A stretch of 64,000 nucleotides of DNA, taken from contig BAOK01000002.1 of NCBI GenBank assembly GCA_000509225.1, forward strand, positions 4,496 through 68,495. Reading direction: 5' to 3'. The notes beneath the pieces were generated by a model. The model ran no database searches. It saw nothing but the letters and a program-made list of their open reading frames with translations, and was not told where the DNA came from. Source of the stretch: Parvibaculaceae bacterium Mf 1.05b.01. Lineage in GTDB: Bacteria; Pseudomonadota; Alphaproteobacteria; Parvibaculales; Parvibaculaceae. The position numbers and the translations under genes were made by a program. Positions 6,257-45,986 of this stretch are shown here, one piece after another; position 1 is the first letter of the stretch, and each line of letters starts with the position of its first letter.

Positions 6257-7603
6257 GTGGCGCAGGAGAAAACAGAGAACTCGAAAAAGGCGATGCAAAA
6301 AGCGGCGCTCTCGAAAAAGCTTGCACTGCCTCTGACATTGGAAGAGTCCGGTCCCCCGCGCTTTTATCAAAACCTGATGATTGTTGGCGGTGTCTTTCTG
6401 GCGCTTGCCATCCTCTGGGGATCAATCACGGAAATCAAAGAACTGGCGCGGGCTGATGGGGAAGTCACGCCCGCCGGACGGGTGCAGCTTGTCCAACATC
6501 TCGAAGGCGGCATTGTCGCGGAAGTCCTTGTCAATGAAGGAGAGCTGGTCGAAAAAGGCCAGCCGCTCGCTCGCCTTCAACCTATTGCTGCCGAGGGTGA
6601 CCTTGGACAGTTGGCCGCCCGACAGGTTGCTCTGAAGCTCAAAATCGAACGTCTGAGCGCCAATGTTGAGGCGCGGCCGATGGACCCTGCGCTCGAAGAG
6701 CTTGATCCCAATCTCTATGCGAACGAACTTGCGCTCCTTGAAGCCTCTCTCACGGCTGCCGATCGCCAGCGACAGGGTTTCCTTGCTCGGATCGAACAGC
6801 GCAAGAGCGACATCGAATCCCTCTCAGATCAACGCACAAGCCTGAAAGAACAGGTTGAGTTGATGCTTGAGCAGGTCAACCTAAGGGGGGGTCTGCTTGA
6901 AAAGGGACTGGTCTCCCGCATCGCTTTTCTTGAAACCAAGCGCACCTATGAACAGACCCGGGTCCAACTTATTTCAACGGCCGGCAACCTTGCCGCGACC
7001 CGCGAGTCTCTGCGCGAGGAAGAGGTTGGCCTGGAAGAGCTGGATGCGACCCTGATCAATGACGCGCTTTCTGAACGGTCGACTGCCACTGCGGAACTTG
7101 ATGAAACAACAAGCGCCATTCGCAAACTCACGGACCGGGTGGAGCGTTTGACGGTCTTCGCCCCTGTTCGCGGCATCGTTCAGGACCTGCCCGCCAAAAC
7201 AATCGGCGAAGTCATCGAACCCGGCGGCCTCGTCGCTCAGGTGGTGCCCATGGATGATGAGCTTGTGGCGGAAGTCCGTGTTCTGCCAACTGACATTGGG
7301 CACATCCAGATCGGGGATCCTGCAAAGGTCAAAATCACCACATATGACACTGCTCGCTTCGGCGATATTAATGGTGAGGTTCGCCGCATTTCCGCATCCA
7401 CGTTTAGAGATGAAGAAGACGAACCGTATTACAAAGTCATCATCGCCCTTTCCAAAGCGCATGTAGGCCTTGGTGCGCAACACCACGCCATTCTGCCAGG
7501 CATGGTTGTGAATGCGGAGATCATTACGGGTTCCAAGTCGCTTGTTCGCTATCTCCTGAAACCTGTTTTCCGATCCCTGGACATCGCCTTTACGGAGCGG
7601 TGA
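6257..7603 (+). CDS. HlyD-family membrane fusion protein of type I secretion
   Basis: The 448-residue protein is the periplasmic adaptor that links the ABC exporter to an outer-membrane channel. It has a short cytoplasmic N-terminus, one membrane helix (about residues 35-60), a biotinyl-lipoyl-like segment (VQHLEGGIVAEVLVNEGE, about 80-97), a long coiled-coil region (about 115-290) and a C-terminal beta-barrel part containing an RGIV motif. The chosen start is GTG at 6257, followed by GCG CAG GAG; the ribosome-binding site (AAGGG) is modest. It follows the two ABC genes on the same strand, the usual order in adhesin and RTX secretion operons. Confidence 0.9.
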   Translation: MAQEKTENSKKAMQKAALSKKLALPLTLEESGPPRFYQNLMIVGGVFLALAILWGSITEIKELARADGEVTPAGRVQLVQHLEGGIVAEVLVNEGELVEKGQPLARLQPIAAEGDLGQLAARQVALKLKIERLSANVEARPMDPALEELDPNLYANELALLEASLTAADRQRQGFLARIEQRKSDIESLSDQRTSLKEQVELMLEQVNLRGGLLEKGLVSRIAFLETKRTYEQTRVQLISTAGNLAATRESLREEEVGLEELDATLINDALSERSTATAELDETTSAIRKLTDRVERLTVFAPVRGIVQDLPAKTIGEVIEPGGLVAQVVPMDDELVAEVRVLPTDIGHIQIGDPAKVKITTYDTARFGDINGEVRRISASTFRDEEDEPYYKVIIALSKAHVGLGAQHHAILPGMVVNAEIITGSKSLVRYLLKPVFRSLDIAFTER

Positions 7604-7678
7604 GCCTCTTCTGATTGGCTCCCCAACCATGTCCGAATCTGGCGAGTAATTTCCATGCCATGAGTCTATGCTTGAAGC

Positions 7679-9175
7679 ATGGATATTTGTTCACCTTCGT
7701 CGTTCCCGACACCCGACGCCTGCTACGCGGCCATTCAGGCGCGCGACACCCGCTTTGACGGGCGCTTTTTCACCGGTGTTACGTCCACGGGCATCTATTG
7801 TCGGCCTGTCTGTCCAGCCCGGCTTCCCAAGCGTGAAAACTGCACCTTCTGGCCATCTGCTGCGGCGGCTGAGCAGGCCGGTTTTCGGGCCTGTCTGAGA
7901 TGCCGCCCTGAGGCTGCGCCCGGCACGCCTGCGGCGCAAGGCTCAGCGGCAACGGTATCCCGTGCGCTTCGTCTGATCGGTGAAGGCGCGTTGGACACTG
8001 GCAGTGTCTGTCAACTTGCCGATCGCCTGGGTCTTGGTGAGCGACAGGTGCGACGCCTGTTTAATATGCATTTAGGGGCCAATCCTGAAGCTGTCGCGGC
8101 GACGCGACGGCTGCTGCTCGCCAACCAGTTGCTGCGCGATACAAATCTGCCTGTCGCCGACATCGCCTTTGCCTCCGGCTTTTCAAGCCTCAGGCGCTTC
8201 AATGATGCGTTTGCCAAACGCTATGGCGAACCGCCAACAGCTATCCGGCGGGCCGCGCGGAAGAAAGGCCATGGCGCTACAAACAAGGACAATGCGCTCC
8301 CCTTCGACCTTCGGTTGCGTCTTGGGTTTCGCCCGCCCTTCGACTGGCAGATGATCCTGGACTATTTCGAGATGCGTGCCATTCCAGGCGTCGAGGCGAT
8401 TGACGGCAATCGGTACCGACGGACTGTGCGGCTGAACGACGCCCATGCCTTTATTGAAGCTGAGCCTGATAAATCCCGTGATATTCTTTGGGTGCGGGTG
8501 ATGAGCAATCGCCCCTTCGCGCTTGCAGATCTTGTCATGCGACTGCGGCGCCTGTTCGATCTTGATGCGCAGCCGCAGGCTATCGGCGCGCACTTTTCCG
8601 ATGATCCGCTTATTGGTCCCTTGGTTAAACAGCGGCCCGGTCTTCGCATTCCTGGTGCCTTTGATGGCTTTGAGTTGGCTATCCGCGCCATTCTCGGCCA
8701 GCAGGTATCGGTCAAAGGTGCAACCACCATCGCAGGCCGCCTGGTGGAGGCGTATGGAGATCAGGTGACAACGCCGGGGGAAAACTGGCCGTCATACTTG
8801 TTCCCGGAACCTCAGACGCTTGTAAGAGATGACCTTGGCAAACTGGGCATGCCCCGCACACGTGGAGACACATTGTCCACCGTTGCCAAAGCGGTTGTCG
8901 GCGGAGACGTCGCATTGCATCCCGGAGTCAATGTTTCTGAGATGGTCGCCGCCCTCACCTCGCTCAAAGGCATTGGCGAGTGGACAGCCTCCTATGTCGC
9001 GTTGCGCGCACTTGGGGACCCGGATGCCTTTCCCTCTGGCGACCTGGGGCTTCAAAAAGCTGCCGCCCTCAATTCTGAAAAACTGAGCGCGAAAGCGCTC
9101 TCTGCAACCGCAGAAAACTGGAGGCCCTGGCGCGGCTATGCCGCTCTCCACCTCTGGTCCAGCCTGTCCTCGTAG
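7679..9175 (+). CDS. Ada-AlkA fusion: methylphosphotriester sensor with 3-methyladenine DNA glycosylase II
   Basis: Three domains lie in 498 residues. Residues 14-80 match the Ada N-terminal zinc domain with C41, C45, C72 and C75; in E. coli Ada the equivalent first cysteine accepts methyl groups from phosphotriesters. Residues about 90-185 form an AraC-type helix-turn-helix. The remainder is an AlkA-like glycosylase with the helix-hairpin-helix segment LKGIGEWTASYVALRALG and the catalytic aspartate in FPSGDLGL. Role: sensing alkylation damage and excising alkylated bases; the protein may also activate its own operon once methylated. The ogt gene starts 9 bases after the stop, so the two are very likely co-transcribed. 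Confidence 0.9.
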   Translation: MDICSPSSFPTPDACYAAIQARDTRFDGRFFTGVTSTGIYCRPVCPARLPKRENCTFWPSAAAAEQAGFRACLRCRPEAAPGTPAAQGSAATVSRALRLIGEGALDTGSVCQLADRLGLGERQVRRLFNMHLGANPEAVAATRRLLLANQLLRDTNLPVADIAFASGFSSLRRFNDAFAKRYGEPPTAIRRAARKKGHGATNKDNALPFDLRLRLGFRPPFDWQMILDYFEMRAIPGVEAIDGNRYRRTVRLNDAHAFIEAEPDKSRDILWVRVMSNRPFALADLVMRLRRLFDLDAQPQAIGAHFSDDPLIGPLVKQRPGLRIPGAFDGFELAIRAILGQQVSVKGATTIAGRLVEAYGDQVTTPGENWPSYLFPEPQTLVRDDLGKLGMPRTRGDTLSTVAKAVVGGDVALHPGVNVSEMVAALTSLKGIGEWTASYVALRALGDPDAFPSGDLGLQKAAALNSEKLSAKALSATAENWRPWRGYAALHLWSSLSS

Positions 9176-9184
9176 GAACCCGCT

Positions 9185-9700
9185 ATGCCAAAACATCCAA
9201 AGCCACTTGCCATCGCAATCCTCGATACACCAATCGGGCCCATTCGCGTCGCAGCCCACTCCGGTGGTCTCGCACGAGTTCTGTTCGACACACAAAAAGA
9301 AGAGGTGCTTGAAGAAGACCCCAATCCGTCGGACGAGGCCAAGCAACATCTTGAAGCTGCACTTAAAGCACTTAAAGAATATTTCGCCGACGAACGTCAG
9401 AGTTTTGACGACCTGACTCTGGCACCAGAGGGCACCGATTTTCAGCTCAGTGTCTGGCATGCCCTTTTGAATATTGGATATGGCGACACGTGCGCTTATC
9501 GGGACATCGCCACCTCAATTGGCAATCCGAAAGCGGTCCGTGCTGTAGGCCTTGCCAACGGCAAAAACCCGATCCCAGTCATTGTTCCCTGTCACCGGGT
9601 GATCGGTGCCAATGGCACCCTTACCGGCTTTGGCGGCGGGCTGCCGGCCAAGAAATGGCTGTTAGAGCATGAAGGGGCACTCGCGGGGTCTCTTATTTAG
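9185..9700 (+). CDS. ogt: Methylated-DNA--[protein]-cysteine S-methyltransferase
   Basis: The 171-residue protein directly reverses O6-methylguanine in DNA by transfer of the methyl group to its own cysteine. The active-site motif PCHRV is present with C136 as acceptor, followed by the characteristic LTGFGGGLPAKKWLLEHE. The length is typical of stand-alone Ogt proteins. It follows the Ada-AlkA gene by 9 bases, making a two-gene adaptive-response operon. The Ada C-terminal domain missing from the fusion is functionally supplied by this gene. Confidence 0.93.
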   Translation: MPKHPKPLAIAILDTPIGPIRVAAHSGGLARVLFDTQKEEVLEEDPNPSDEAKQHLEAALKALKEYFADERQSFDDLTLAPEGTDFQLSVWHALLNIGYGDTCAYRDIATSIGNPKAVRAVGLANGKNPIPVIVPCHRVIGANGTLTGFGGGLPAKKWLLEHEGALAGSLI

Positions 9701-9736
9701 CGGTATGATGCTCCCCTGATTCATTTTGAAGACTGG

Positions 9737-9830
9737 TTTTGATTGGATCAAAATCAATCTCCAAAATTATTTTGTCGCGTTTTCGGACGGATAACCCCAA
9801 GTCTGACTTGGCACTTATCCTGAAAACGCT
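9737..9830. repeat. Dispersed intergenic palindromic element
   Basis: An inverted repeat TTTTGAT-TGG-ATCAAAA (9737-9753) is followed at 9776 by CGCGTTTTCGGACGGA, and the element closes with CTGAAAACGCT at 9830. The core recurs exactly at 63974-63989, and related elements lie near 27107 and 58195-58421. The type is common between genes in Hyphomicrobiales-like genomes and has no known function. Confidence 0.6.
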
Positions 9831-9848
9831 TGAGGGGAGTTGCGTCAC

Positions 9849-10031
9849 ATGATTGATCTTCAGTTTAACGGCCTGTTTGGGCTGCTCATTCTGATCGCTG
9901 ATATTTATGCGATCGTGAAGACCGTGCAGAGCAACGCAGAGACACTCACCAAAGTCTTGTGGATCGTTGTGATCCTGTTCCTGCCACTGCTGGGCGTCAT
10001 CCTCTGGTACTTCTTCGGCCCGCGCGGATAA
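9849..10031 (+). CDS. Small membrane protein with PLD-nuclease N-terminal (PLDc_N)-like domain
   Basis: The 60-residue protein has two hydrophobic helices (about 6-24 and 33-55) and ends in WYFFGPRG, the pattern of the PLDc_N family found alone or in front of cardiolipin synthases. ATG at 9849 is preferred over the in-frame TTG at 9840, because GAGGGGAG at 9831-9839 sits the right distance from the ATG and directly abuts the TTG. Function unknown. It ends one base before the convergent bioD gene. Confidence 0.75.
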   Translation: MIDLQFNGLFGLLILIADIYAIVKTVQSNAETLTKVLWIVVILFLPLLGVILWYFFGPRG

Positions 10032-10703
10032 TCAATCCAAATATTGTGTGAGGTCAGGCGCTTCGGCTTCGTCAAGGCGGGGGACGATGGCAATGGGTAC
10101 GTTGCTTGCAAAGCGCTCCATGACCTCCACCGTCTCTTCGACTGGCACCGGGTTTACCTCAGACGTCGAGATCACAATGACGGCTGGGGTGAGGCCGCGC
10201 GCGTTTAGACTCTCTAGCGCTGTCAGCGTATGGCTGATGGTTCCAAGATAAGAGCCTACAACCAACACCACCCGAAGATCTGCCTTGTTCTTCAACGCAA
10301 CCATCCAATCAGCCATGGTTGTTTCCGGGTTGATGGGCACCAGAACACCACCGGCGCCTTCCACGAGCACATAGTCCTGATCTGTCGGCGCCACACAAAA
10401 ATCGATGAGCTCATCAAGCTTCATGGTTTGACCAACACGCATTGCCGCCATGTCCGGCGAAAGCGGAGGATCAAAACGCCACGGCGTAATGGCGGCAATA
10501 GCTTCTTCGCTGACATCTTCCCCCAGCGCCAAAAGCATCCGGCCTGAATCTGTTTCTTCTAGCGGCACACCTGCAAGGCCGCTCAACACGGGCTTCAAAG
10601 CCGCGACCTTCTTGCCCTTGGCAATAAGCTGACGGATCAGAATTTCACTGATCACCGTTTTGCCAATATCTGTTCCTGACGCAGTTACAAACAGGTGGGT
10701 CAT
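10032..10703 (-). CDS. bioD: Dethiobiotin synthetase
   Basis: The 223-residue protein closes the ureido ring of dethiobiotin from 7,8-diaminopelargonate with CO2 and ATP, the penultimate step of biotin synthesis. The N-terminal P-loop GTDIGKTV and the VEGAGGVLVP segment are typical. It overlaps bioF by ATGA (10700-10703), so it is translationally coupled to it. Its stop is directly adjacent to the convergent small membrane-protein gene. Confidence 0.93.
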   Translation of the reverse strand: MTHLFVTASGTDIGKTVISEILIRQLIAKGKKVAALKPVLSGLAGVPLEETDSGRMLLALGEDVSEEAIAAITPWRFDPPLSPDMAAMRVGQTMKLDELIDFCVAPTDQDYVLVEGAGGVLVPINPETTMADWMVALKNKADLRVVLVVGSYLGTISHTLTALESLNARGLTPAVIVISTSEVNPVPVEETVEVMERFASNVPIAIVPRLDEAEAPDLTQYLD

Positions 10704-11866
10704 TCAGCAGCTCGTTTGTTGAGGATTTGGGTACGCACAAGATCGGCCAGTCGATCAATGTCTTTGTCTTTGTGAAGGGCGGTAAAAGTGAAACGCAGAC
10801 GCGCGGTGCCCTTCGGTACAGTTGGCGGGCGAATGGCTGTCACCAGAAAGCCCTCTTCTTCGAGAAAGGCTGACGCTTTGAGCGTCGTCTCTGGATCGCC
10901 AAGCACTAGCGGAACAATTGGGCTCTCGGCAGCTGGTAAGTTAAGCGCTCTCGTAAAACGGTTCGCCTTCTCGACAGGCAAGGCAGCGTAGTCCGGCTCT
11001 GTCTCAATGATGTCTAGAGCTGCAATGGCAGCGGCCGCGCTCGCCGGAGGCAGTCCCGTTGAATAGATCAACGTTCTTGCGCGGGTGCGTAAAAGGTCAA
11101 TCACCGGCTGGCTTGCGCAAATGTAGCCACCATAGGAACCGATCGCTTTTGACAGCGTTCCCATTTGCAGGGGGACATCGGCTTTCGTTCCTGTCACGAA
11201 GCTGGAGCCTCGACCTTCGGCAAGGACGCCAATGCCATGGGCATCATCTGTCATCAACCAAGCATCATGCAATTTGGCCATCTCGGCCATTTCCGCAACC
11301 GGTGCCAGGTCCCCATCCATAGAAAAAACCCCGTCGGTGACGATAAGGCAATGTTTCGCCGCCGCGCGATGCGTTTCGAGGAGCTCGGTCAGGTGAGCCA
11401 TATCATTGTGTCTGAACCGAAAAGATGTGGCTCCAGAGAGATCCGTCCCTGACAGAAGACAGGAATGGGAGAGCTCATCTGCAAGGACCAGATCGCCCGG
11501 TTTCATCAAGGTTGGGATGATGCCCAGGTTGGCGAGATAACCTGACCCTAACACCACGCAGTCGTCGGTTTGCTTAAGCGCAGCAAGACGCCGCTCCAAT
11601 TCCGTAAAGATGGAATGGTTACCGGTCACAAGCCGCGAGGCACCAGAACTTGCGCCGCGCTCATCCAGGGCGTGTTTGGCTGCCTCGATGACCCGCGGGT
11701 CGTGGGCGAGGTTCAAATAGTCGTTGCAGCAGAAGGAGATCAGCGTCCGGCCATCCCGCACCACATAAGCCCCTGCATTCCGGTCGGTTTCTTTCAGGCG
11801 ACGGCGCAGGTTCCCGGCCTCCAACTCAGCCAGTTTCCGAAGCGCCATGTCGTCGAGCGAGCTCAT
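10700..11866 (-). CDS. bioF: 8-amino-7-oxononanoate synthase
   Basis: This 388-residue PLP enzyme condenses pimeloyl-thioester with alanine, the first dedicated step of biotin ring assembly. The PLP lysine lies in LSKAIGSYGG, and the DDAHGIGVLAEGRG and CCNDYLNLA segments are characteristic. It is the first gene of bioF-bioD, divergent from bioB across 235 bases. I saw neither a BioR-type TTATCTATAA box nor a BirA operator in that gap. Confidence 0.93.
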   Translation of the reverse strand: MSSLDDMALRKLAELEAGNLRRRLKETDRNAGAYVVRDGRTLISFCCNDYLNLAHDPRVIEAAKHALDERGASSGASRLVTGNHSIFTELERRLAALKQTDDCVVLGSGYLANLGIIPTLMKPGDLVLADELSHSCLLSGTDLSGATSFRFRHNDMAHLTELLETHRAAAKHCLIVTDGVFSMDGDLAPVAEMAEMAKLHDAWLMTDDAHGIGVLAEGRGSSFVTGTKADVPLQMGTLSKAIGSYGGYICASQPVIDLLRTRARTLIYSTGLPPASAAAAIAALDIIETEPDYAALPVEKANRFTRALNLPAAESPIVPLVLGDPETTLKASAFLEEEGFLVTAIRPPTVPKGTARLRFTFTALHKDKDIDRLADLVRTQILNKRAAE

Positions 11867-12101
11867 ATCACCTCAATCGCGTTTTCTTGGGATTTGGGGA
11901 CTTTCCAGCTGATTCCGGCGGTTTCCGTTGGGACACCCACTTTCTCCCAAAATCGGCGGCAAACCTGCGCGTTGCGCCTTCGCGAGTCAACCAAATCCGG
12001 TGTCACAATGCCCAAACTCTCTTGCTTGCAAATGAGCCCGTTCTGCCTATGCTCACGGTCAAAATGGCCCCGATAGCCCGTCTTGAAACAGGGAAGAGTT
12101 C

Positions 12102-13136
12102 ATGAATATTCAGACGCCCGTGTCCGAGCAGACCGCCGCTCCGCAGACCTCTAAGGCTCCGGGGACCACCGCCCTCCGCCATGATTGGTCGCGCGAGGAA
12201 GTTGAAGCGCTGTTTGCCCTTCCCTTCAATGATCTCATTTTCCGCGCCCAGACGGTGCACCGTGAATGGTTTGACCCAAACGAAGTGCAGAAAAGCATGC
12301 TCTTGTCAGTAAAGACAGGTGGCTGCCCTGAAGATTGCGGATATTGCTCCCAGAGTGCCAAATACGAGACCGGCCTTAGTGCTTCCAAACTGATGGAAGT
12401 TGAAAAGGTGCTGGATGGCGCGCGCCGCGCGAAAGAAGCGGGTGCCTCGCGCTATTGCATGGGTGCTGCCTGGCGCGAGCCAAAAGAGCGCGACATGGCA
12501 GCGATCGTTGCCATGATTAAGGGCGTTCGGGAGATGGGCATGGAAACCTGCATGACTCTTGGCATGCTGAGCCCTGAACAAACGATCCAGCTCAAAGATG
12601 CGGGCCTGGATTATTACAATCATAATATTGACACGTCTGAAGAGTTTTATCCGTCAATCATCACGACACGGACCTTCCAGGATCGCATCGACACGCTGGA
12701 GCGCGTTCGCGAAGCCGGCATCAATGTCTGCTCCGGCGGCATTCTGGGACTTGGCGAAGAACGTCAAGACCGCGCCGGTATGCTGATGGCTCTGGGCAAC
12801 CTTACCGAGCACCCTCAGTCTGTGCCGATCAACATGCTGATCCCGATTGAAGGCACACCTCTTGGTGAGAATGCCAAAATCGATGCCATTGAATTTGTGC
12901 GCACCATTGCGGTTGCCCGCATCATGATGCCTAAGTCCATCGTTCGCCTGTCAGCAGGCCGGGAATGGATGTCGGATGAAACGCAGGCACTGTGCTTCCT
13001 TGCTGGCGCAAACTCGATCTTCATTGGTGATGAGCTACTCACCACCAAAAACCCGGGGCAGGACAAAGACGAGGCATTGTTCGACAAGCTCGGCCTTGCG
13101 CCTATGCCAGCCCATCGGTGCCCTTCGGAAGTCTAG
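12102..13136 (+). CDS. bioB: Biotin synthase
   Basis: This 344-residue radical-SAM enzyme inserts sulphur into dethiobiotin. The CxxxCxxC cluster motif is C75, C79 and C82 ([13 protein letters not shown]), and the [19 protein letters not shown] and YYNHNIDTS segments of BioB follow. The ATG at 12102 has a GGAAG ribosome-binding site. It is divergent from bioF-bioD and convergent with the TetR gene. The 9-base gap between stops is part of a small stem (CTAGGC-N5-GCCTAG, 13134-13150) that includes both stop codons. Confidence 0.95.
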
Positions 13137-13145
13137 GCGCATTGC

Positions 13146-13763
13146 CTAGGTGACAATCACTTCCAATATCGTTGTAACGAGCTCATCGTGGAACCTTTTG
13201 CGTTCGGCGCGGGACCCTTTTCCACGTGGCGCGACCTGAAAAAGAGATCCATCCATAACGGTCGTGACAATCCGTGCCCTCTTTAACGCGTCGTCGGTTG
13301 ATGCTGTCCTATTCAACTCTTGCACCAGGTCTGCGACCTCCTGATAGAAATGTCGATAGTGCTTTTTGTGCAGAAGTCGAAAACGTTCCTGATGCAAGGC
13401 CAGCATGAAGGTGACCGCATAGACACGCCCCCCCGTCTGGCTCCAGTCCTCCAACAGTCGATGGACCATATGTGCAAGCCTGATCTTGGTCGTCCCTGAA
13501 CCAGCGATTGCTTCACGGACGGTGTTCAGGCTGCGCTCAAATTCCTGACGGACAATTTCTTCCAATAGGTCTTCCCGCACAGGGAAGTAATATTGGAGGT
13601 TCCCCAAGGTGATCTCAGCTTGCGCCGCGATGGTGCGGAGCACAAAAGCGTCATACCCCTCCTCAATCAGAAGATTCCGCCCGAGGGAGATGATTTCGGC
13701 GCGACGCTTCTGACCTTTGGTCAGCTTAATATCTTCATCAGAAGACAGGGGTTGCGCATCCAT
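13146..13763 (-). CDS. TetR-family transcriptional regulator
   Basis: The N-terminal helix-turn-helix (about residues 20-60: ILSLG-like helix, EGYDAFVLRTIAAQAEITLGN, then LQYYFPVREDLL) is clearly TetR type; the ligand domain is not recognisable. A longer frame begins at GTG 13784, but ATG 13763 has GGAAGG at good spacing and is preferred (205 residues). It is divergent from the acetyltransferase/deacetylase operon, and two operator-like palindromes lie between the two starts, so it probably represses itself and that operon. The ligand could be an amine or polyamine, judging from the neighbours; that is inference. Confidence 0.85.
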   Translation of the reverse strand: MDAQPLSSDEDIKLTKGQKRRAEIISLGRNLLIEEGYDAFVLRTIAAQAEITLGNLQYYFPVREDLLEEIVRQEFERSLNTVREAIAGSGTTKIRLAHMVHRLLEDWSQTGGRVYAVTFMLALHQERFRLLHKKHYRHFYQEVADLVQELNRTASTDDALKRARIVTTVMDGSLFQVAPRGKGSRAERKRFHDELVTTILEVIVT

Positions 13764-13786
13764 CTTGCCTTCCAGCCCTTGCACTT

Positions 13787-13805
13787 AATAGGTCGGCAAC
13801 CTATT
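13787..13805. promoter_or_regulatory. Operator-like palindrome 1, AATAGGT-N5-ACCTATT
   Basis: Perfect 7-base arms with a 5-base spacer lie 24 bases before the TetR start. A second, nearly identical palindrome is centred 31 bases away (three helical turns). This is the usual layout for an autoregulated TetR operator between divergent genes. Confidence 0.65.
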
Positions 13806-13817
13806 TTTATCGAAATT

Positions 13818-13836
13818 ATTAGGTTATTGACCTATT
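13818..13836. promoter_or_regulatory. Operator-like palindrome 2, ATTAGGT-N5-ACCTATT
   Basis: One mismatch separates it from palindrome 1. It ends 26 bases before the start of the acetyltransferase gene and probably overlaps the promoter of that operon. Confidence 0.6.
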
Positions 13837-13861
13837 TTAAGAAATTGAATGGGAGAGAGCA

Positions 13862-14497
13862 ATGAAAATCACCAACCCGGACAAACCAACCGCACAAACG
13901 TTCGCCGATCAGTATCCAGATCTTGTTCATCAGACTGGCGCTGCAACCTATAACTACCTTTTCGGGCCGGACCGTGTACTTTTTGACGCCTTTATGAAAC
14001 AGAGCTGGGTAGCGCCACAAAATCTTTTTTCCCATTCAGAAACAACAATCATTGCCGATGGATCGACCCTGCTGGGCATTGAGCTCGGTTATGGCGGAAG
14101 CGACTGGTACAAGTTTCACTCATCCGGTGGCGCTGTCATTGGCAAGCTCTTCGAAGAGGGACGTCTCGACGAAGAGAGTCTTGTTGCCTTGGGAGAGAGA
14201 TCAAACCTTATCAGCTACATGAACCCGCATATTCCCGATCACGCCTACTATATCACGGCATTGTCAGTCGCAGCTTCTGCGCGCGGAACAGGGCTTGGGG
14301 CCAAGCTGCTCACCAATGCCATCGAACGTGCACGCAAAGAGGGATATAAGGAACTCCATCTGGATGTCTTCTCTGACAACCCAGCCGTTAAGTTCTATCA
14401 ATCCATGGGCCTTACCTGCATGTCCGAAACCATTGCGCCCATCCCCTGCCGTGCGCACAATACACCGATGGAAATGCGAATGGTGATTGCCTTATGA
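13862..14497 (+). CDS. GNAT-family N-acetyltransferase
   Basis: In this 211-residue protein the C-terminal part (about 135-205) is a GNAT domain: the acetyl-CoA motif A is ARGTGLGAKLL, followed by the beta strand LHLDVFSDNPAVKFYQSMG. The ATG follows GGGAGAG. The stop overlaps the start of the deacetylase-like gene (ATGA, 14494-14497), giving tight coupling of an acetylating and a deacetylating enzyme under one TetR-controlled promoter. Substrate unknown; a polyamine or amine is plausible from the partner. Confidence 0.85.
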   Translation: MKITNPDKPTAQTFADQYPDLVHQTGAATYNYLFGPDRVLFDAFMKQSWVAPQNLFSHSETTIIADGSTLLGIELGYGGSDWYKFHSSGGAVIGKLFEEGRLDEESLVALGERSNLISYMNPHIPDHAYYITALSVAASARGTGLGAKLLTNAIERARKEGYKELHLDVFSDNPAVKFYQSMGLTCMSETIAPIPCRAHNTPMEMRMVIAL

Positions 14498-15537
14498 CGG
14501 CCTCTGAGATGCCTTACGTTTTTGCGGATGCGCAGACAAAACATGACCCAAAATTCTTTCTTGCAAGCGGGATCATCTCTGAGAATGAAGAGGTCCCGGC
14601 GCGCGCTGAAATTCTCGCCAAGGGTGCGGAGAAAGCGGGTCTTACCCGGGTGGCCCCTGAGGATTATGGGCTTGGCGTGATCAGCCGCTGCCATACGCCG
14701 GAATATCTGCAGTTTCTTAAAAACATTTATACCCGCTGGTCACGCAAACCCGGTGCACCTAAGGAAGTGATCCCCAATATTCACCCTCAACGTCGTGATT
14801 TTGGATACCCCGCCGCCGCTGACGGTCAGGTGGGCTATCACACAGCCGATACGTCTGCACCTATCGGCGCGCATACCTGGGAGAGTGCTTATTGGTCTGC
14901 TCAGGCAGCCGCGCATGCAGCCGAGCTTGTGTCGGGGGGAGCCGACAGCGCCTATGCGCTCTGCCGGCCGCCAGGGCACCATGCCATGCGCGATATTGCC
15001 GGTGGATTTTGTTACCTGAACAATTCCGGCATCGCGGCTGAGGAGCTGCGCCAACGGCATGAGCGCGTCGCTATCCTCGATATTGACGTGCACCACGGCA
15101 ACGGTACGCAAGACATCTTTTACGAACGTCCCGATGTTCTGACTGTCTCTCTTCACGTCGACCCGGTTCGCTTCTATCCCTTCTTCTGGGGTCATGCGGA
15201 TGAACGCGGTGATGGCGCGGGCCAGGGATATAATCTCAACATCCCGCTGCGCCGCAGGACGGCGGATGATGACTACCTGACAGCACTGGATCAAGCGCTG
15301 GAGCGGATCGACGCGTTTGCGCCAGGGGCGCTTGTCCTCGCACTTGGGTTGGATTCCTTTGAAGGCGATCCGTTTGAGGGGCTGTCAATTTCCACGCCCG
15401 GTTTTGCGCGCATCGCAGATGCCATATCAACACGCGGATACCCGACCGTGATTGTTCAGGAAGGCGGTTATATCTGCCCAGAACTTGGCGACAACCTCAC
15501 ATCCTTTCTGACCGGTTTCATCAACGCTCGAGATTGA
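14494..15537 (+). CDS. Acetylpolyamine amidohydrolase / histone-deacetylase-family hydrolase
   Basis: The 347 residues are close to the length of known bacterial acetylpolyamine amidohydrolases. Zinc-site and catalytic motifs are intact: RPPGHHAM (tandem histidines), ILDIDVHHGNGTQ (Asp and His metal ligands), LGLDSFEGDP (third ligand Asp) and the closing QEGGY tyrosine. It should remove acetyl groups from amines or acyl-lysines. It is coupled to the GNAT gene by ATGA overlap. Polyamine substrate is the family expectation, not shown here. Confidence 0.88.
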   Translation: MTASEMPYVFADAQTKHDPKFFLASGIISENEEVPARAEILAKGAEKAGLTRVAPEDYGLGVISRCHTPEYLQFLKNIYTRWSRKPGAPKEVIPNIHPQRRDFGYPAAADGQVGYHTADTSAPIGAHTWESAYWSAQAAAHAAELVSGGADSAYALCRPPGHHAMRDIAGGFCYLNNSGIAAEELRQRHERVAILDIDVHHGNGTQDIFYERPDVLTVSLHVDPVRFYPFFWGHADERGDGAGQGYNLNIPLRRRTADDDYLTALDQALERIDAFAPGALVLALGLDSFEGDPFEGLSISTPGFARIADAISTRGYPTVIVQEGGYICPELGDNLTSFLTGFINARD

Positions 15538-15552
15538 ACTGGAGAAAGACAG

Positions 15553-16263
15553 TTAGAGCCAGGCGAGCGCCTTTTTCAGAAAGGCTTGTCCATCGCGGGG
15601 CTGCCATTCCCCATGTGCCATGACGACCTGTTCAGTTGGCCAGTCCAAAATACGGGCCTTGGCCGCCCTGGCGGGTTTGCGGAAAATGAATGAGAGCCGC
15701 CATTCGAGCGGCGCATAGCCCCAGCCCTCGACGATCTTCCATCTGCGTGCAATCCAGCGCGCCCACGGCTTCCAATGCTCGCGAAGAAAAGCGTCACTGA
15801 AGTTTTCTGACAGGTCAGCAAGGATGGTGGTGGCAGAGGGCCTGTGATGGAAGACGATCTCGTCCAGAGCGGGGGACCCTTGCATCCAGACCTGATCAAT
15901 TTCATCCGTCCAATCCAATGGCGGGGTCTCTGTCAGCGCATTTTCAAACTCAAGCTCAGGGCATTTCGCCATTGTGGATGCGGGACCCCACACTTTTGCA
16001 GCCGGAAAAACGTCTGCCCACTCAGCCAAAAACAAGTAGTGGATTTTGTTTGGACTCACGAGATGCTCTACCGGGCCCAAGGCTTGAACAATGGCTCTCA
16101 GCTCCTCCGTCAGTTTGGTAGGAGACCAGACCCACAAGCCACCTGTCTGAAGACGCACAATGACGCAGCGTGTTGGATAGGGAAATCCATAAAAACTCAC
16201 GCAATCTCCGTCGAAAATCCAGATTTCATGTCCAATTTTCTGAAGCATTCTCTTTTGAGACAT
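15553..16263 (-). CDS. DUF4336 protein (metallo-beta-lactamase-like)
   Basis: The 236-residue protein has the family pattern of DUF4336: IWIFDGDCVSFYGFPYPTR near the start, then LWVWSPT and HLVSPNKIHYLFLAEW. Function unknown. The frame is open to a TTG at 16338, but ATG 16263 has GAGG eight bases upstream and aligns with the usual family start, so it is chosen. A further start at 16248 is possible. It is convergent with the deacetylase gene and divergent from bioA. Confidence 0.8.
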   Translation of the reverse strand: MSQKRMLQKIGHEIWIFDGDCVSFYGFPYPTRCVIVRLQTGGLWVWSPTKLTEELRAIVQALGPVEHLVSPNKIHYLFLAEWADVFPAAKVWGPASTMAKCPELEFENALTETPPLDWTDEIDQVWMQGSPALDEIVFHHRPSATTILADLSENFSDAFLREHWKPWARWIARRWKIVEGWGYAPLEWRLSFIFRKPARAAKARILDWPTEQVVMAHGEWQPRDGQAFLKKALAWL

Positions 16264-16336
16264 TTTGGGCCTCATGTGATTGAGCACTGCCATGGGCAAG
16301 CCTATGCCATCTGACGAAACTGTCCAGCATGTGGCC

Positions 16337-16350
16337 AAATAGACCTATTT
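16337..16350. promoter_or_regulatory. Palindrome AAATAG-AC-CTATTT between DUF4336 gene and bioA
   Basis: It contains one exact copy (16343-16349) of the ACCTATT half-site found in the TetR operators at 13787-13836, and a shortened opposite half. It lies between two divergent genes, 65 bases before bioA. It may be a weak extra site for the same regulator. Confidence 0.35.
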
Positions 16351-16414
16351 AGGAGTTGCACCTGCGACGGCCTCCCGCGACATTGCGGCCTCTGCTTTCT
16401 CAGCGAGGTGTCTC

Positions 16415-17719
16415 ATGGCCAGTTTCCCCCCAACAAACCCTGCCTATCCAACCCCGCCAGAATGGTTGAAGGAAGGTGCTCCTCACGTCTGGCTGCCCTA
16501 TGCGCAAATGCAGACAGTCCCGATGACCCTGCCAGCGGTCAAAACAGAAGGCGTGCGCATTACATTGGAGGACGGTCGGGAACTGATTGACGGTGTGTCG
16601 TCCTGGTGGACCGCAGCCCACGGATATAACCATCCGCATATCCGGGAGGCGGTGACCAAGCAACTTGAGCAGATGCCGCACATCATGCTCGGCGGTTTTG
16701 CCCATGAGCCAGCCTTTCGGTTGGCCAAGCGCCTTGCAGACATCCTCCCTGGGGATCTGAACCACACATTCTTCTCGGAGTCAGGGTCCGTCTCGGTTGA
16801 GATCGCCATGAAAATCGCCGTGCAATATTGGATCAACCAGGGCGTGCGCGGGCGCCATCATTTTGTCAGCTTCCGAGGCGGATACCATGGGGATACGTTG
16901 GGCACGATGGCGGTCTGCGATCCGGACGAAGGCATGCACAGTCTTTTTAAGGGCGTGATCCCAGAGCATCTGCTGACGGACATTCCTCGAGGCGCTGACA
17001 GTGAAGCCGTTTTCGATCAGTTCCTTAAGACCCATGCTGATGAAGTCGCTGCGGTAGTGATGGAGCCGCTCGTACAAGGTGCCGGGGGTATGCTTTTTCA
17101 TCCGCCTGAGACATTGCAGATCATCCGGCGTTGTTGTGACCGGCACAACGTGCTGCTCATTGTCGACGAAATCTTCACTGGCTTTGGCCGGACGGGAACC
17201 CTTTTCGCCTGTCACCAGGCCGACATTGTTCCTGACATTATGACGCTCTCCAAAGCCCTTACCGGGGGCACAATGGCGCTGGCAACAACAACTGCGCGCA
17301 CCCATGTTTTTGAGGCTTTCCTGAGTGACGACCCGGGCAAAGCCTTGATGCATGGCCCCACCTATACCGGCAACCCTCTGGCCTGCGCCGCAGCCAACGC
17401 AGCGCTTGATCTTTTCGAGCAGGAACCAAGGTTGGAGCAAGTTGGCCGGATTGAGGCGCAGCTCAAGAAGGAGCTGGAACCCGCACGCGCAGTAAATGGC
17501 GTCAAAGATGTCCGTGTGTTGGGTGCGATTGGGGTGATTGAGGTCGATGATCTGAAAGATACAGAGTGGCTGAAACGCCGCTTCATCGAAGAAGGTGTTT
17601 GGGTTCGTCCGTTTGCGAACATCATCTACACCACCCCGCCACTGGTGATCGATGAAGCCGACCTGAGGACACTCACTCAGGCAATGCTGCGCATCCTGGC
17701 TGAATGGGAGCAAAAATAG
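16415..17719 (+). CDS. bioA: Adenosylmethionine--8-amino-7-oxononanoate aminotransferase
   Basis: This 434-residue class III PLP aminotransferase makes 7,8-diaminopelargonate using SAM as amino donor. It has the family start HVWLPYAQM, the VSSWWTAAHGYNHP segment, DEIFTGFGRTGTLFA with the cofactor aspartate and the PLP lysine in MTLSKALTGG. ATG 16415 follows GAGGTG. It completes the bioA-B-D-F set in the window, but is separated from bioB by four unrelated genes. bioC and bioH were not seen. Confidence 0.94.
   Translation: MASFPPTNPAYPTPPEWLKEGAPHVWLPYAQMQTVPMTLPAVKTEGVRITLEDGRELIDGVSSWWTAAHGYNHPHIREAVTKQLEQMPHIMLGGFAHEPAFRLAKRLADILPGDLNHTFFSESGSVSVEIAMKIAVQYWINQGVRGRHHFVSFRGGYHGDTLGTMAVCDPDEGMHSLFKGVIPEHLLTDIPRGADSEAVFDQFLKTHADEVAAVVMEPLVQGAGGMLFHPPETLQIIRRCCDRHNVLLIVDEIFTGFGRTGTLFACHQADIVPDIMTLSKALTGGTMALATTTARTHVFEAFLSDDPGKALMHGPTYTGNPLACAAANAALDLFEQEPRLEQVGRIEAQLKKELEPARAVNGVKDVRVLGAIGVIEVDDLKDTEWLKRRFIEEGVWVRPFANIIYTTPPLVIDEADLRTLTQAMLRILAEWEQK

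Positions 17720-40039: not shown

Positions 40040-40041
<2 letters not shown>
40001..40041 (+). terminator. Rho-independent terminator between leuA and gyrB
   Basis: AGGTCAGCAC (40001-40010) pairs perfectly with GTGCTGACCT (40020-40029), followed by TTCTATTTTTT. It serves leuA. The tail overlaps the stop of the convergent gyrB gene. Confidence 0.88.
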
Positions 40042-42544
<2,503 letters not shown>

Positions 42545-42560
42545 TCACCGATGCCAGGTC

Positions 42561-43157
42561 TTAGCTGAGCTCATCAACCGATGTAACAATTTTGCTGACG
42601 ACGCCGTACTCAACGGCTTCCTCCGCACTCATCCAGAAGTCACGGTTCGTGTCTTCGACGATTTTTTCGAAGGACTGACCTGTTGCTTTTGCAAAGATAT
42701 GGTTGAGCCGCTCGCGCATCCGCAACACTTCGCGTGCCTGAATGTCGATCTCGGACGCTGACCCCCCAACGCCGCCGCGCGGTTCATGCAGCAGGAAGCG
42801 TGTATTGGGCAGACAGAAACGATGTTCCTTCTCGGCCGACACGAAAATCAATGCGCCAGCACTTGCCACCCAACCGGTACCAAGCACACGGACGGTCGGC
42901 TTGATGAATTTGATCATGTCGTGGATCATGTCGCCGGATTCCACATGGCCGCCGGGCGAAGACACAACAACAGTGATCGGATCGTCGGACTCGCCAGCCA
43001 TCGCCAACAGACGCTCGCTGGTCGCACGGGCGACGCGGTCATTGATTTCACCGGTGATGAGAATCGTGCGGGATTTGAAAAGGCCACTTTCCAGCAGCGG
43101 GTTCGCCATGTTCTTCAGGAGATCCGTCGGATCGGCGTCGTTCATCGAATGAGACAT
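42561..43157 (-). CDS. ClpP-like serine protease, atypical
   Basis: The 198-residue protein has the ClpP fold with an intact triad: S99 in [11 protein letters not shown] (canonical GQAASMGA), H124 in FLLHEPRGG (canonical MIHQPLGG) and D173. [11 protein letters not shown] and the [11 protein letters not shown] tail are ClpP-like. Identity to housekeeping ClpP looks low and the N-terminus differs, so it may be the variant ClpP of some alphaproteobacteria. No Clp ATPase is nearby. It is located between recF and gyrB, which is unusual. Confidence 0.85.
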
Positions 43158-43293
43158 GTATCGGGGCTTCTTTGCGTTTTAAAGATGATTCTTTTCAGCC
43201 CCAAATATAGGTTGAAAATCAAGAGGTTACAACGCAACCGCTTATATTTCTGAGGCCGTTTCAGAGCTTAAATAGCTAAGCGTTTTCAAGGCC

Positions 43294-44502
43294 TTAAAGA
43301 GGCGTCATTTCGGCCCGATTTTCTCGAACCACAAACCCTTGAGCACGGGCGCCCAGAGATGAAAAAAGGCTCGCATCGGTGCCCGTCATCCAGGCCTGAA
43401 TGCCCATCTCGCAGAGCTCATCAAAGAGTGCTGCGCGCCGGTCACTGTCCAGATGGGCTGCGACTTCATCCAACAAAAGGAGAGGGGACGTGCCGGTCGC
43501 ATGGGCGAGGAGCCGCGTGTTTGCCAGCATCAGACCCAGCAAAAGCGCTTTTTGCTCCCCAGTGGAACAAGCCTTCGCCTCCATGTCTTTGGGCGCATGA
43601 CGGACCAGAAGGTCGCTGCGATGGGGACCATCAAGGGTGCGTCCTGCGCCGCGGTCCCGTGGCCGCATTTCTTCAAGAAGGGCGCGATATCTGTCTTCTG
43701 CGTCAGTTGCGGCGGTTCCGTTAGCGACGGCGCTTTCGAGCTCTCCCTCAAGGGCCAGAACCGCCTTTGGGAAGGCGCTTTCGGCGGTTGCCTCGATGGC
43801 GCCTTTGAGACGTGCAATGGTCTCCACACGGGCGGCCGCCATTGCGACCCCATACTCTGCCATCTGTTCTTCGATGGCGGCGTACCACATGGCGTCGCGC
43901 ACATCTTCGCTCAGCAAACGATTGCGTTCTCTCAGCGCCTTCTCAAACGCGTTGGCGCGCGTGCCATGGCTTGGGTCAAAGCCCATGACCAGCCGGTCCA
44001 GAAATCGACGGCGGCCCGTCGCACCATCCATGAAGAGACGGTCCTGGGCAGGCGTCAGCCAGAGCACCCGCAGATAGTCTCCGAGCACGCCTGCGCTTGA
44101 TTGGGTTTCCCCATCAATGCGCACCATTCTGGATCTCGGGACATCACCAACGCTTGGTTCCTGACCAGTCCCGATGACCGTCTCATCGCCATCGCGGGTC
44201 AGTGTTGCTGCCACGGCCCATCCATGCCGCGCAGCTGTTTCACCGGAAGCTCTAAAGCCGAGTTCTGTAAATGGCGCACCGCGCAAGCCACGGCCCGGAG
44301 AAAGGAGGGAGATTGCTTCTAGGAGATTGGTCTTGCCGGCCCCATTGGGGCCCGTCAGAACAACCGGGCGGCCGTCCAGGGCAAGAGCTGCGCGTTCATA
44401 GGAGCGAAAATGGGTGACCACCAAGCGCGACAAATATATCGCAGGCGCAGGGTCACGTTCGCGCCCAGAAGCCAGATTCTGACTTTCCGGTTCACCTGAC
44501 AT
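43294..44502 (-). CDS. recF: DNA replication and repair protein RecF
   Basis: In this 402-residue protein the Walker A is LTGPNGAGKTNLLEAI with the RecF-type SPGRGLR continuation. The signature-like segment is STGEQKALLLGLMLANTRLL and Walker B is PLLLLDEVAAHLD. It loads RecA at gapped DNA with RecO and RecR. It lies directly downstream of dnaN (25 bases between), the classical dnaA-dnaN-recF order. Confidence 0.95.
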   Translation of the reverse strand: MSGEPESQNLASGRERDPAPAIYLSRLVVTHFRSYERAALALDGRPVVLTGPNGAGKTNLLEAISLLSPGRGLRGAPFTELGFRASGETAARHGWAVAATLTRDGDETVIGTGQEPSVGDVPRSRMVRIDGETQSSAGVLGDYLRVLWLTPAQDRLFMDGATGRRRFLDRLVMGFDPSHGTRANAFEKALRERNRLLSEDVRDAMWYAAIEEQMAEYGVAMAAARVETIARLKGAIEATAESAFPKAVLALEGELESAVANGTAATDAEDRYRALLEEMRPRDRGAGRTLDGPHRSDLLVRHAPKDMEAKACSTGEQKALLLGLMLANTRLLAHATGTSPLLLLDEVAAHLDSDRRAALFDELCEMGIQAWMTGTDASLFSSLGARAQGFVVRENRAEMTPL

Positions 44503-44527
44503 ACTCTGACCCTCGGATTGAAACGCT

Positions 44528-45640
44528 CTAGACGCGCATCGGCATCAGCACATAGAGGGCTGATTCATCATCTACATCGCGAATAACAGTTGGCGACCCG
44601 CTGTCTGCAAGAGAGAAGACCGCCTTGTCGCCATCGAGCTGGCCTGCAATGTCGAGCAAGTAGCGGGCGTTGAAGCCGATCTCCAAGGCATCAGAGCTAT
44701 AGGCAACGCCCAGTTCTTCCGTGGCGCTGCCGCTGTCTGGATTGGTGACGGTCAGAATAAGCCGCCCCTCTTCCATATTGAGCTTCACCGCGCGGGAGCG
44801 CTCTGTCGAAATGGTTGATACACGGTCAACAGCCTCGGCAAATTTTTTGCCGTCCACTTCCATGTCCTTGTCATTGCCTTCCGGAATGACCCGCGTGTAG
44901 TCGGGGAAGGTGCCATCGATGAGCTTTGAGGTCAGGACAACGCCGCCAAATTCGAAGCGGATCTTCGTATCCGATACGCCGATGCGAACAATGCCTTCTT
45001 CCTCTTCCACCAGCTTTTGAAGCTCAAGCACTGTCTTGCGGGGAACGATCACACCCGGCATGCCTGCTGCGCCGTCCGGCAGGGGAAAGTCGGCCTGCGC
45101 CAGACGGTGACCGTCCGTCGCCACAGCCCGGAGCATGGGCGCCCCATCTTCCACCATATGCAGGTAGATGCCGTTTAGATAATAGCGTGTCTCTTCTGTG
45201 GAGATGGCAAAGCGTGTCTTGTCGATCAAACGCCCCAAAGCTTCCGCCGGCATTTCAAAACGATGCGGTAAATCGCCCGCTGACATGGCCGGGAAGTCTT
45301 CCTGCGGTAGCGCCTGGAGTGCAAAACGCGAGCGCCCCGCCTGGAGGGTGAGCTTACCGTCTTCACCGTCTGTGATCTCGACCTGGGCGCCGTCGGGTAG
45401 TTTGCGGACAATGTCATAGAGCGTATGAGCGGACGCCGTCGTACCGCCTTCCTGACCAATGTCAGCTGTGGTGGCTTCGACCACTTCAATATCCAGGTCC
45501 GTCGCGGTGAGGCTCAACTGGCCCTGGCCCGCGCGCATCAGCACATTTGATAGGATCGGGATTGTGTTGCGGCGTTCGACGACACTTTGCACATGATTGA
45601 GCGACTTTAAGAGCGCACCGCGTTCAATTGTGATCTTCAT
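44528..45640 (-). CDS. dnaN: DNA polymerase III sliding clamp (beta subunit)
   Basis: The 370-residue protein is the ring-shaped processivity clamp. MKITIERGALLKSLNHVQSVVERRNTIPILSNVLM is characteristic of the N-terminus (pattern seen as MKITIERGALLKSL), and the C-terminus ends in ALYVLMPMRV. The frame extends to 45739, but ATG 45640 gives the conserved start and follows GGGGA. Confidence 0.96.
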   Translation of the reverse strand: MKITIERGALLKSLNHVQSVVERRNTIPILSNVLMRAGQGQLSLTATDLDIEVVEATTADIGQEGGTTASAHTLYDIVRKLPDGAQVEITDGEDGKLTLQAGRSRFALQALPQEDFPAMSAGDLPHRFEMPAEALGRLIDKTRFAISTEETRYYLNGIYLHMVEDGAPMLRAVATDGHRLAQADFPLPDGAAGMPGVIVPRKTVLELQKLVEEEEGIVRIGVSDTKIRFEFGGVVLTSKLIDGTFPDYTRVIPEGNDKDMEVDGKKFAEAVDRVSTISTERSRAVKLNMEEGRLILTVTNPDSGSATEELGVAYSSDALEIGFNARYLLDIAGQLDGDKAVFSLADSGSPTVIRDVDDESALYVLMPMRV

Positions 45641-45986
45641 AGGTCCCCAAACTCTTCTTTCTTTTTTTGGCCTCACAACCAGATTGGAGCGCCTCACGCA
45701 GTCAACAAGGTCTGCATTCTGCGCGCCCAGCAGGCTCACTTATTTGCTGGACGATGGGTCTTTACGATGGCGGGACCCAGCAGGACACACATATGGCGTC
45801 CCCACAGCCTCGCAATCGGCCCGCTGCCCCGGGAATGAAGGGGCAAATCGCCCGATAAGAGACGCTAACTATACCAGAGGTGAGCCCGAGGGATAATGTT
45901 TTCCGCCCTGTCTAGGGGCAGATTATCCTCAAATTGTGTGCGGCTTCCACTCGGCCTCAATCGCCTCACCGGATCCAGACAGACAG
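45641..45986. other. 346-base gap between dnaA and dnaN
   Basis: Contains an inverted repeat with a DnaA-box-like element (45888-45931) and probably the dnaN promoter. Nothing else recognisable. Confidence 0.5.
45888..45931. promoter_or_regulatory. Inverted repeat with DnaA-box-like arm in the dnaA-dnaN gap
   Basis: GAGGGATAAT (45888-45897) pairs with ATTATCCTC (45922-45930), one base bulged; inside, CCCTGTC/GGGGCAG-type pairing continues. The right arm reads TTATCCTCA (45923-45931), one mismatch from TTATCCACA. The other arm is three mismatches away. It may be a DnaA site or a dnaA terminator-like hairpin. Confidence 0.35.

Follow-up and report, generated by a model that had tools for sequence, protein, structure and literature searches.

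The acetyltransferase-deacetylase gene pair

At one locus of the window, by which we mean the whole 64-kb stretch of DNA that was analysed, an enzyme predicted to add acetyl groups and one predicted to remove them are encoded together. This raises the question of whether the two act on one molecule or on successive steps of a pathway. The GNAT N-acetyltransferase of 211 residues is encoded on the forward strand at 13862-14497 and scored 49.4 bits with Pfam Acetyltransf_1 (cut-off 20.7). The zinc deacetylase of the HDAC/acetylpolyamine amidohydrolase (APAH) group, 347 residues long, follows on the same strand at 14494-15537 and scored 245.4 bits with Hist_deacetyl (cut-off 27.9). The initial annotation had described two such open reading frames overlapping by ATGA, and they were recovered at exactly these coordinates. 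The overlap, in which the GNAT stop meets the deacetylase start (14494-14497, forward strand), likely couples their translation, and from it we infer that the two genes are co-transcribed.

The TetR-family regulator gene (13146-13784, reverse strand; Pfam TetR_N 33.3 bits, cut-off 24) diverges from the pair. The fourth gene of the cassette encodes a Pfam DUF4336 protein with a metallo-beta-lactamase fold (15553-16248, reverse strand) and converges with the deacetylase gene. Its mechanical ORF starts with TTG at 16338, and the ATG at 16248 aligns with the relatives. The cassette is flanked by bioB (12102-13136, named by eye and by its place) and bioA (16415-17719, above the NCBIfam cut-off for BioA). 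With NCBIfam, GNAT and TetR reached the cut-off of no family, and no family at all was obtained for the deacetylase and the DUF4336 protein.

The pair is found in four genomes of the genus, overlapped by ATGA in all four copies, and is under purifying selection. With six pairs per gene, dN/dS was 0.060-0.080 for GNAT, 0.026-0.052 for the deacetylase and 0.093-0.159 for TetR; these ratios are rough because dS was high, 0.54 to 2.4.

Operator-like palindromes and the TetR regulator

The pair had been proposed to lie under one TetR promoter. The divergent gap between the TetR and GNAT genes is 77 bp long and contains two exact palindromes of the form TAGGTN5ACCTA, TAGGTCGGCAACCTA at 13789-13803 and TAGGTTATTGACCTA at 13820-13834, 31 bp from the first. 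Both palindromes are kept in the gap in all four cassette-bearing genomes of the genus. The palindromes speak for the regulator's part of the proposal, whereas no promoter was detected in a simple sigma-70 scan covering 13100-16450.

When up to one mismatch was allowed, the 64-kb window gave three matches against 0.28 expected, and three were also reached by one of 100 shuffles. At the genome level, the exact palindrome occurred 0-3 times and its reversed control 5-12 times, and it was rarer than the control in nine of nine genomes. The case for the palindromes rests on their position and conservation; single copies by themselves mean nothing, and single exact copies away from TetR genes also occur. 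In G005, G006 and G008 the two copies in the gap are all the copies of the genome, and in G000 they are two of three. We took the third copy of G000 as a chance occurrence; its position, C1:424695, is within an ORF upstream of a gene that resembles leuD (by eye).

The same palindrome adjoins TetR homologues of 32-40% identity in G007, G003, G129 and G370. The cassette-free genomes G007 and G003 each have a single exact copy, flanked by the genes of a 40% identical TetR and of a Rieske oxygenase; the best PDB match of the G007 oxygenase was carnitine monooxygenase (E 4.4e-31). This arrangement, with divergent genes, occupies 4906-6759 of L259 in G007 and 4744-6583 of L260 in G003. The sole exact copy of G129, a genome of another family, lies between TetR and GNAT. 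G370 has one copy upstream of its TetR gene, and its second copy (C1:71098) has no TetR gene visible beside it. One palindrome was located about 30 bp upstream of GNAT in a Deltaproteobacteria MAG (L110) and one about 470 bp before GNAT in a Myxococcota locus (L111), where another possible start codon follows right behind the palindrome (by eye). In the stretches fetched for TetR relatives of G134, G239 and G071 the exact palindrome was absent; a second TetR relative in G005 was left out of this check of the class. A plasmid search with TetR returned 37 records, none with at least 60% identity.

Since the palindromes recur beside its relatives, this type of TetR is tied to the TAGGTN5ACCTA word. 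Several likely targets of the group handle amines, which suggests that the regulator group is tied to amine genes. Judged by sequence, control of the pair by TetR is well supported. The regulator would bind the two operators, sites that are supported by conservation, and keep its own gene and the pair repressed as long as no amine or acetyl-amine ligand is present.

The TetR of G005 (L222 / L040) bears on the start of the window protein. Its search alignment, extended over the window N-terminus, counts one TAG, while a later start gives an open frame of 205 residues. The GTG that gives the window TetR its long form may not be the true start.

Motifs and specificity residues of the deacetylase

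The catalytic motifs that had been ascribed to the HDAC-family protein were all found, RPPGHH at residue 158, DIDVHH at 196, GLD at 285 and EGGY at 323. R158, G161, H162, H163, D196, D198, H200, D287, G324, G325 and Y326 were invariant in an alignment of 65 sequences, which includes the window copy and three genus copies (L108 was dropped, as it lies on the same contig as L041 of G006). By sequence the enzyme has the zinc and catalytic motifs of the HDAC fold.

The five best distinct PDB sequences were APAHs (E 3e-90 to 4.5e-74), two of them from 3q9b and 3q9c, which are one enzyme. The nearest solved structures, 3men (E 3e-90), 9gkz, 6phr and 3q9b, came well ahead of the histone-type enzymes, and class I chains scored far lower (HDAC8, E about 1e-29). 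Glu17, a specificity residue of the characterised polyamine deacetylases, corresponds to Phe22 in the window enzyme. Glu106 of the L2 loop corresponds to Asp110 in the window genus; among the 65 aligned sequences 44 have Val at this position, 6 have Asp and 5 have Glu. One active enzyme has His there (PMC11532494). The closest known enzymes are the Mycoplana ramosa APAH (3q9b) and the cluster 4 bacterial deacylases of PMC11532494; with the five best PDB sequences the window deacetylase aligned over about residues 5-344. The cluster 4 features RPPGHH and EGGY are kept, but PFE is read at 293-295 where cluster 4 enzymes carry PIS instead of the gatekeeper of HDAC10 (PMC11532494). Because the specificity residues are only partly kept, we place the enzyme by sequence comparison in the wider APAH group and do not call it a polyamine deacetylase.

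Operons of a GNAT and a deacetylase are already known, so the window pair is a variant of that arrangement. In acuABC of Bacillus subtilis, AcuA is the GNAT and AcuC a deacetylase of the HDAC fold, and the two share an operon and control acetyl-CoA synthetase (PMC8556138). If the window pair worked likewise, the GNAT would acetylate a metabolic enzyme and the deacetylase would reactivate it. In favour of such a switch, one enzyme of cluster 4 is able to remove the acetyl group from acetylated AcsA (PMC11532494). However, the window deacetylase is of another group, nearest to the polyamine enzymes and not to class I, and its setting is different: the neighbours are TetR, DUF4336 and the biotin genes, with neither acuB nor acsA, the acetyl-CoA synthetase gene, beside the pair. 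The relatives described below also sit in small-molecule catabolic operons. We regard a protein-acetylation switch as improbable here.

Fold and relatives of the GNAT

The GNAT has the acetyl-CoA motif RGTGLG at residue 141. Its AF2 model (pLDDT 93.8) was confirmed as a GNAT fold by structure matches. The best were 4m85 (Z 19.5, rmsd 2.5, 179 residues aligned) and 1u6m (Z 18.6, rmsd 3.0, 185 aligned), both acetyltransferases of no assigned function. Tied behind these two were puromycin acetyltransferase (Z 16.2, rmsd 3.1, 184 aligned), PaiA (Z 16.1, rmsd 3.1, 164 aligned), a viral polyamine acetyltransferase (Z 15.9, rmsd 3.0, 181 aligned) and the tabtoxin resistance protein (Z 15.8, rmsd 2.6, 159 aligned). 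Agmatine and N-terminal acetyltransferases were also among the matches. The matches of the model are thus broad, and the substrate cannot be read from a common fold.

When genome contigs were scanned with the GNAT, 15 loci were obtained, from Rhodobiaceae, Candidatus Phaeomarinobacter, Parvibaculum, other alphaproteobacterial MAGs and three Deltaproteobacteria/Myxococcota MAGs. The GNATs of the latter three (L109 and L110 from Deltaproteobacteria, L111 from Myxococcota) are 51-53% identical to the window GNAT, and those of the other loci outside the window genus in the same scan are less similar (37-46%). Horizontal transfer of the GNAT is possible behind this similarity. Among viral contigs two stretches matched the search pattern and none was a relative, and a plasmid search with the GNAT gave no match at E 1e-5.

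Distribution of the cassette in the genus, family and class

TetR, GNAT, deacetylase and DUF4336 were found in the same order between bioB and bioA in four of the seven genus genomes (G000, G005, G006 and G008). In G003, G004 and G007 bioB and bioA are neighbours and the cassette is absent. The spacer is 37 and 63 bp long in G003 and G004, respectively, and about 200 bp in G007, where it reads ...AVGMVHGDRAPEGAQDYLNRALSWL-stop against ...QVVMAHGEWQPRDGQAFLKKALAWL-stop at the end of DUF4336. This remnant of the DUF4336 C-terminus (L067, 5663-5863) speaks against a never-filled site in G007 and fits loss. Because the spacer retains this C-terminus, at least DUF4336 was probably once present and then lost, and the spacer is a probable deletion scar of the cassette. 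An unrooted tree of seven flanking proteins separated the four carriers from G007, G003 and G004; the tree alone does not decide between gain and loss.

The place between bioB and bioA in four genomes could point to a function in biotin synthesis, the cassette handling an acetylated biotin precursor. The same bio genes occur without the cassette in the other three genomes, however, and in the compared loci of other genera no bio gene was seen beside a GNAT or HDAC relative, the exception being a weak (34%) aminotransferase match in L044. The exact palindromes of the window are moreover confined to the TetR/GNAT gap. A link to biotin is therefore very improbable.

The AF2 model of DUF4336 (pLDDT 86.6) matched best the metallo-beta-lactamase fold of 2p97 (E 7.6e-11). 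His70, His135, Asp145 and His212 were invariant in nine sequences, and the full HxHxDH motif was not seen in these nine. DUF4336 is present in 23 of 40 genomes of the family and, being so common, is only weakly linked to the pair.

In Parvibaculum-type genomes of the same family, GNAT (40-44% identity) and HDAC (about 60%) homologues lie at separate loci, and several of these GNAT genes are convergent with that of another TetR (26-29%). In a class sample of 385 genomes, three of them of the window genus, the deacetylase was found at E 1e-50 or better in 104 and the GNAT at E 1e-12 or better in 11. We then considered 61 HDAC loci outside the window genus, a non-random sample of six loci of the family and 55 chosen from the matches in the class, mostly the more similar. 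An upstream GNAT gene overlapping the HDAC gene on the same strand was found in three of the 61, all of one genus, and the pairing is not general among these chosen loci. Five loci were left out of this count: in L168, of two GNAT-scoring ORFs near the HDAC gene, one is on the opposite strand and the other, on the same strand, is separated from the HDAC gene by a further ORF; in L184 the GNAT gene is divergent from the HDAC gene; and in L171, L176 and L201 the GNAT genes are some kilobases away. Three f121 genomes have a GNAT with a TetR that is of another type by eye, and no HDAC at the class cut-off. Among the listed loci, TetR is a commoner companion of the window-type GNAT than HDAC is.

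Operons of the deacetylase relatives

The deacetylase matched 82 plasmid records at E 1e-60, 15 of them with at least 60% identity. We examined 17 of the 18 best-listed loci (H11-H28; H16, probably a duplicate of H15, was omitted). A GNAT gene lies directly upstream of the deacetylase gene in 12 of the 14 loci with 60-66% identity, the two without it being Phyllobacterium L282 and L285, and in none of the three loci below 60%. Aminotransferase and BKACE genes precede GNAT in 11 of the 12 GNAT-bearing loci; BKACE was undetected in L277, and in L291 it is split in two and the deacetylase is matched only in part. GNAT and deacetylase overlap by 4 bp in half of the 12 (L275, L276, L277 and L280, and L281 and L284 by annotation). 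Thirteen of the 14 loci are from Hyphomicrobiales and one is labelled Roseateles, its organism marked unverified. The operons of aminotransferase, BKACE, GNAT and deacetylase occur in Shinella, Phyllobacterium (where a deacetylase is 65% identical to that of the window), Pararhizobium, Ensifer, Sinorhizobium, Rhizobium and under the unverified Roseateles label. Where the window has TetR and DUF4336, they have catabolic partners and, in many cases, a LysR gene in the vicinity.

In the three genomes outside the window genus that have the overlapping pair, all of one further family, genes for a solute-binding protein (SBP), a PotA-like ATPase, a class III aminotransferase, BKACE, GNAT, HDAC and an FAD oxidoreductase stand in a row, preceded by two permease genes (by eye) in the two genomes that were read further. 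By NCBIfam, the BKACE passed the threshold of 3,5-dioxohexanoate:acetyl-CoA acetone transferase, and the ATPase passed that of potA. The full row is seen in L234 (G301) at 6454-16362, with a divergent LysR gene (permeases and LysR by eye), and this operon possibly serves the catabolism of an acetylated diamino acid. Larger parts of the PotA-type operon were found in six further loci (L153, L155, L156, L161, L163 and L185), in all of which GNAT was undetected.

The window GNAT matched the GNAT of the PotA-type operon over 48 residues only, in the acetyl-CoA region, and its match to the Phyllobacterium GNAT was not significant (E 0.19), whereas the latter two are 31% identical over 144 residues. 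The window GNAT and the GNATs of these operons thus belong to different subfamilies, so the operons speak for the deacetylase only. A single deacetylase group is therefore found in combination with two GNAT subfamilies. The pairing that had been proposed from the window therefore held in part: it is kept in four of the seven genus genomes and a GNAT partner is frequent among the nearest deacetylase relatives examined, but on the plasmids the GNAT is of the other subfamily, and the overlap was rare among the 61 chosen loci. The pairing as such seems to matter.

The window-type GNAT was met with another deacetylase in G129, where genes for TetR (32%), GNAT (36-37%), a copper amine oxidase and a deacetylase stand in a row. 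This deacetylase is more distant from that of the window and nearer to HDAH-type enzymes. The best PDB match of the copper amine oxidase is named phenylethylamine oxidase. As a candidate for a missing partner acting in trans, a copper amine oxidase was not found in any of the seven genus genomes (E 1e-20); it was found in three of the 21 genomes searched.

Proposed function of the module

We consider it reasonably probable that the cassette is a TetR-controlled module of amine metabolism with the two enzymes in one pathway, its substrate class being predicted from the neighbours of the relatives. Several observations point this way: APAHs are the closest solved relatives of the deacetylase; its plasmid relatives have aminotransferase, BKACE and GNAT neighbours, and the PotA-type row is of the same kind; the palindrome-linked TetR recurs beside the G129 amine oxidase row and the Rieske oxygenases; and PaiA, polyamine and agmatine acetyltransferases are among the fold matches of the GNAT model. 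Against it stand the breadth of these fold matches, the changes from PIS to PFE and from Glu17 to Phe, and the separate loci of the GNAT and HDAC homologues in Parvibaculum-type genomes. Genes for a transporter, an oxidase or an aminotransferase are also missing from the window cassette.

In such a module the GNAT and the deacetylase would be made in step through the ATGA overlap. The GNAT would use acetyl-CoA to acetylate a primary amine of some small molecule. The deacetylase would work on a related acetylated amine, most probably an intermediate further along the pathway or a different position rather than the GNAT's own product, because cycling of one product would only burn acetyl-CoA. 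DUF4336 may process an intermediate, although its link is weak. From the neighbours of the relatives, the substrate would be a diamine, a polyamine or an amino-acid-like amine.

The initial annotation had offered a switchable modification, a detoxify-and-recycle pathway for amines, or successive steps. The catabolic neighbours of the relatives, which handle amines and amino acids, fit the latter two, and a regulatory switch fits less well; an amine-metabolism function is likely, a protein switch less likely, and successive steps are the more likely reading of the pair. Detoxification and recycling of one molecule would mean that the GNAT caps an excess amine and that the deacetylase frees it when it is needed or when it is imported in acetylated form. 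Coupled genes would supply both directions, and the relation to the APAHs agrees with this. Nevertheless, both enzymes present together on one compound would cycle acetyl-CoA to acetate, and the operons of the deacetylase relatives carry further catabolic enzymes. We therefore hold this reading to be unlikely.

For successive steps, one particular form can be suggested tentatively. The GNAT would cap one amine of a diamine or diamino acid, the other end would be oxidised or transaminated, and the HDAC-fold enzyme would uncap the product last. The acetyl cap would stop the intermediate from cyclising or reacting. The Puu putrescine pathway uses gamma-glutamyl protection; its logic of protecting, oxidising and deprotecting would be common to both, with acetyl instead of glutamyl in the window. 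This form is conceivable but doubtful. If it were true, the logic of adding and removing a group would have been assembled several times, because one deacetylase group occurs with two GNAT subfamilies and the window GNAT type occurs with another deacetylase in G129.

The literature offers related enzymes. Kinetics of the M. ramosa enzyme on acetylspermidine and acetylputrescine are given, acetyltransferases are reported in phages and amidohydrolases in Imitervirales (PMC9992855), and P. aeruginosa is described as having no homologue of the E. coli polyamine acetyltransferase (PMC4784309). Our search, which covered few subscription papers, found no paper on a TetR-controlled pair of GNAT and APAH. 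Thousands of bacterial HDAC relatives are uncharacterised (PMC11532494). In the window the deacetylase is accompanied by an acetyltransferase, a regulator and probable operators, and the question can thus be tested with three proteins and one DNA site.

Two other features of the window were observed. A 498-residue Ada/AlkA-like fusion is encoded beside an Ogt-like methyltransferase (by eye) at 7679-9700, a DNA alkylation repair pair. At 40040-47585 gyrB, recF, dnaN and dnaA lie close together (by eye), an origin region about 25 kb from the cassette.
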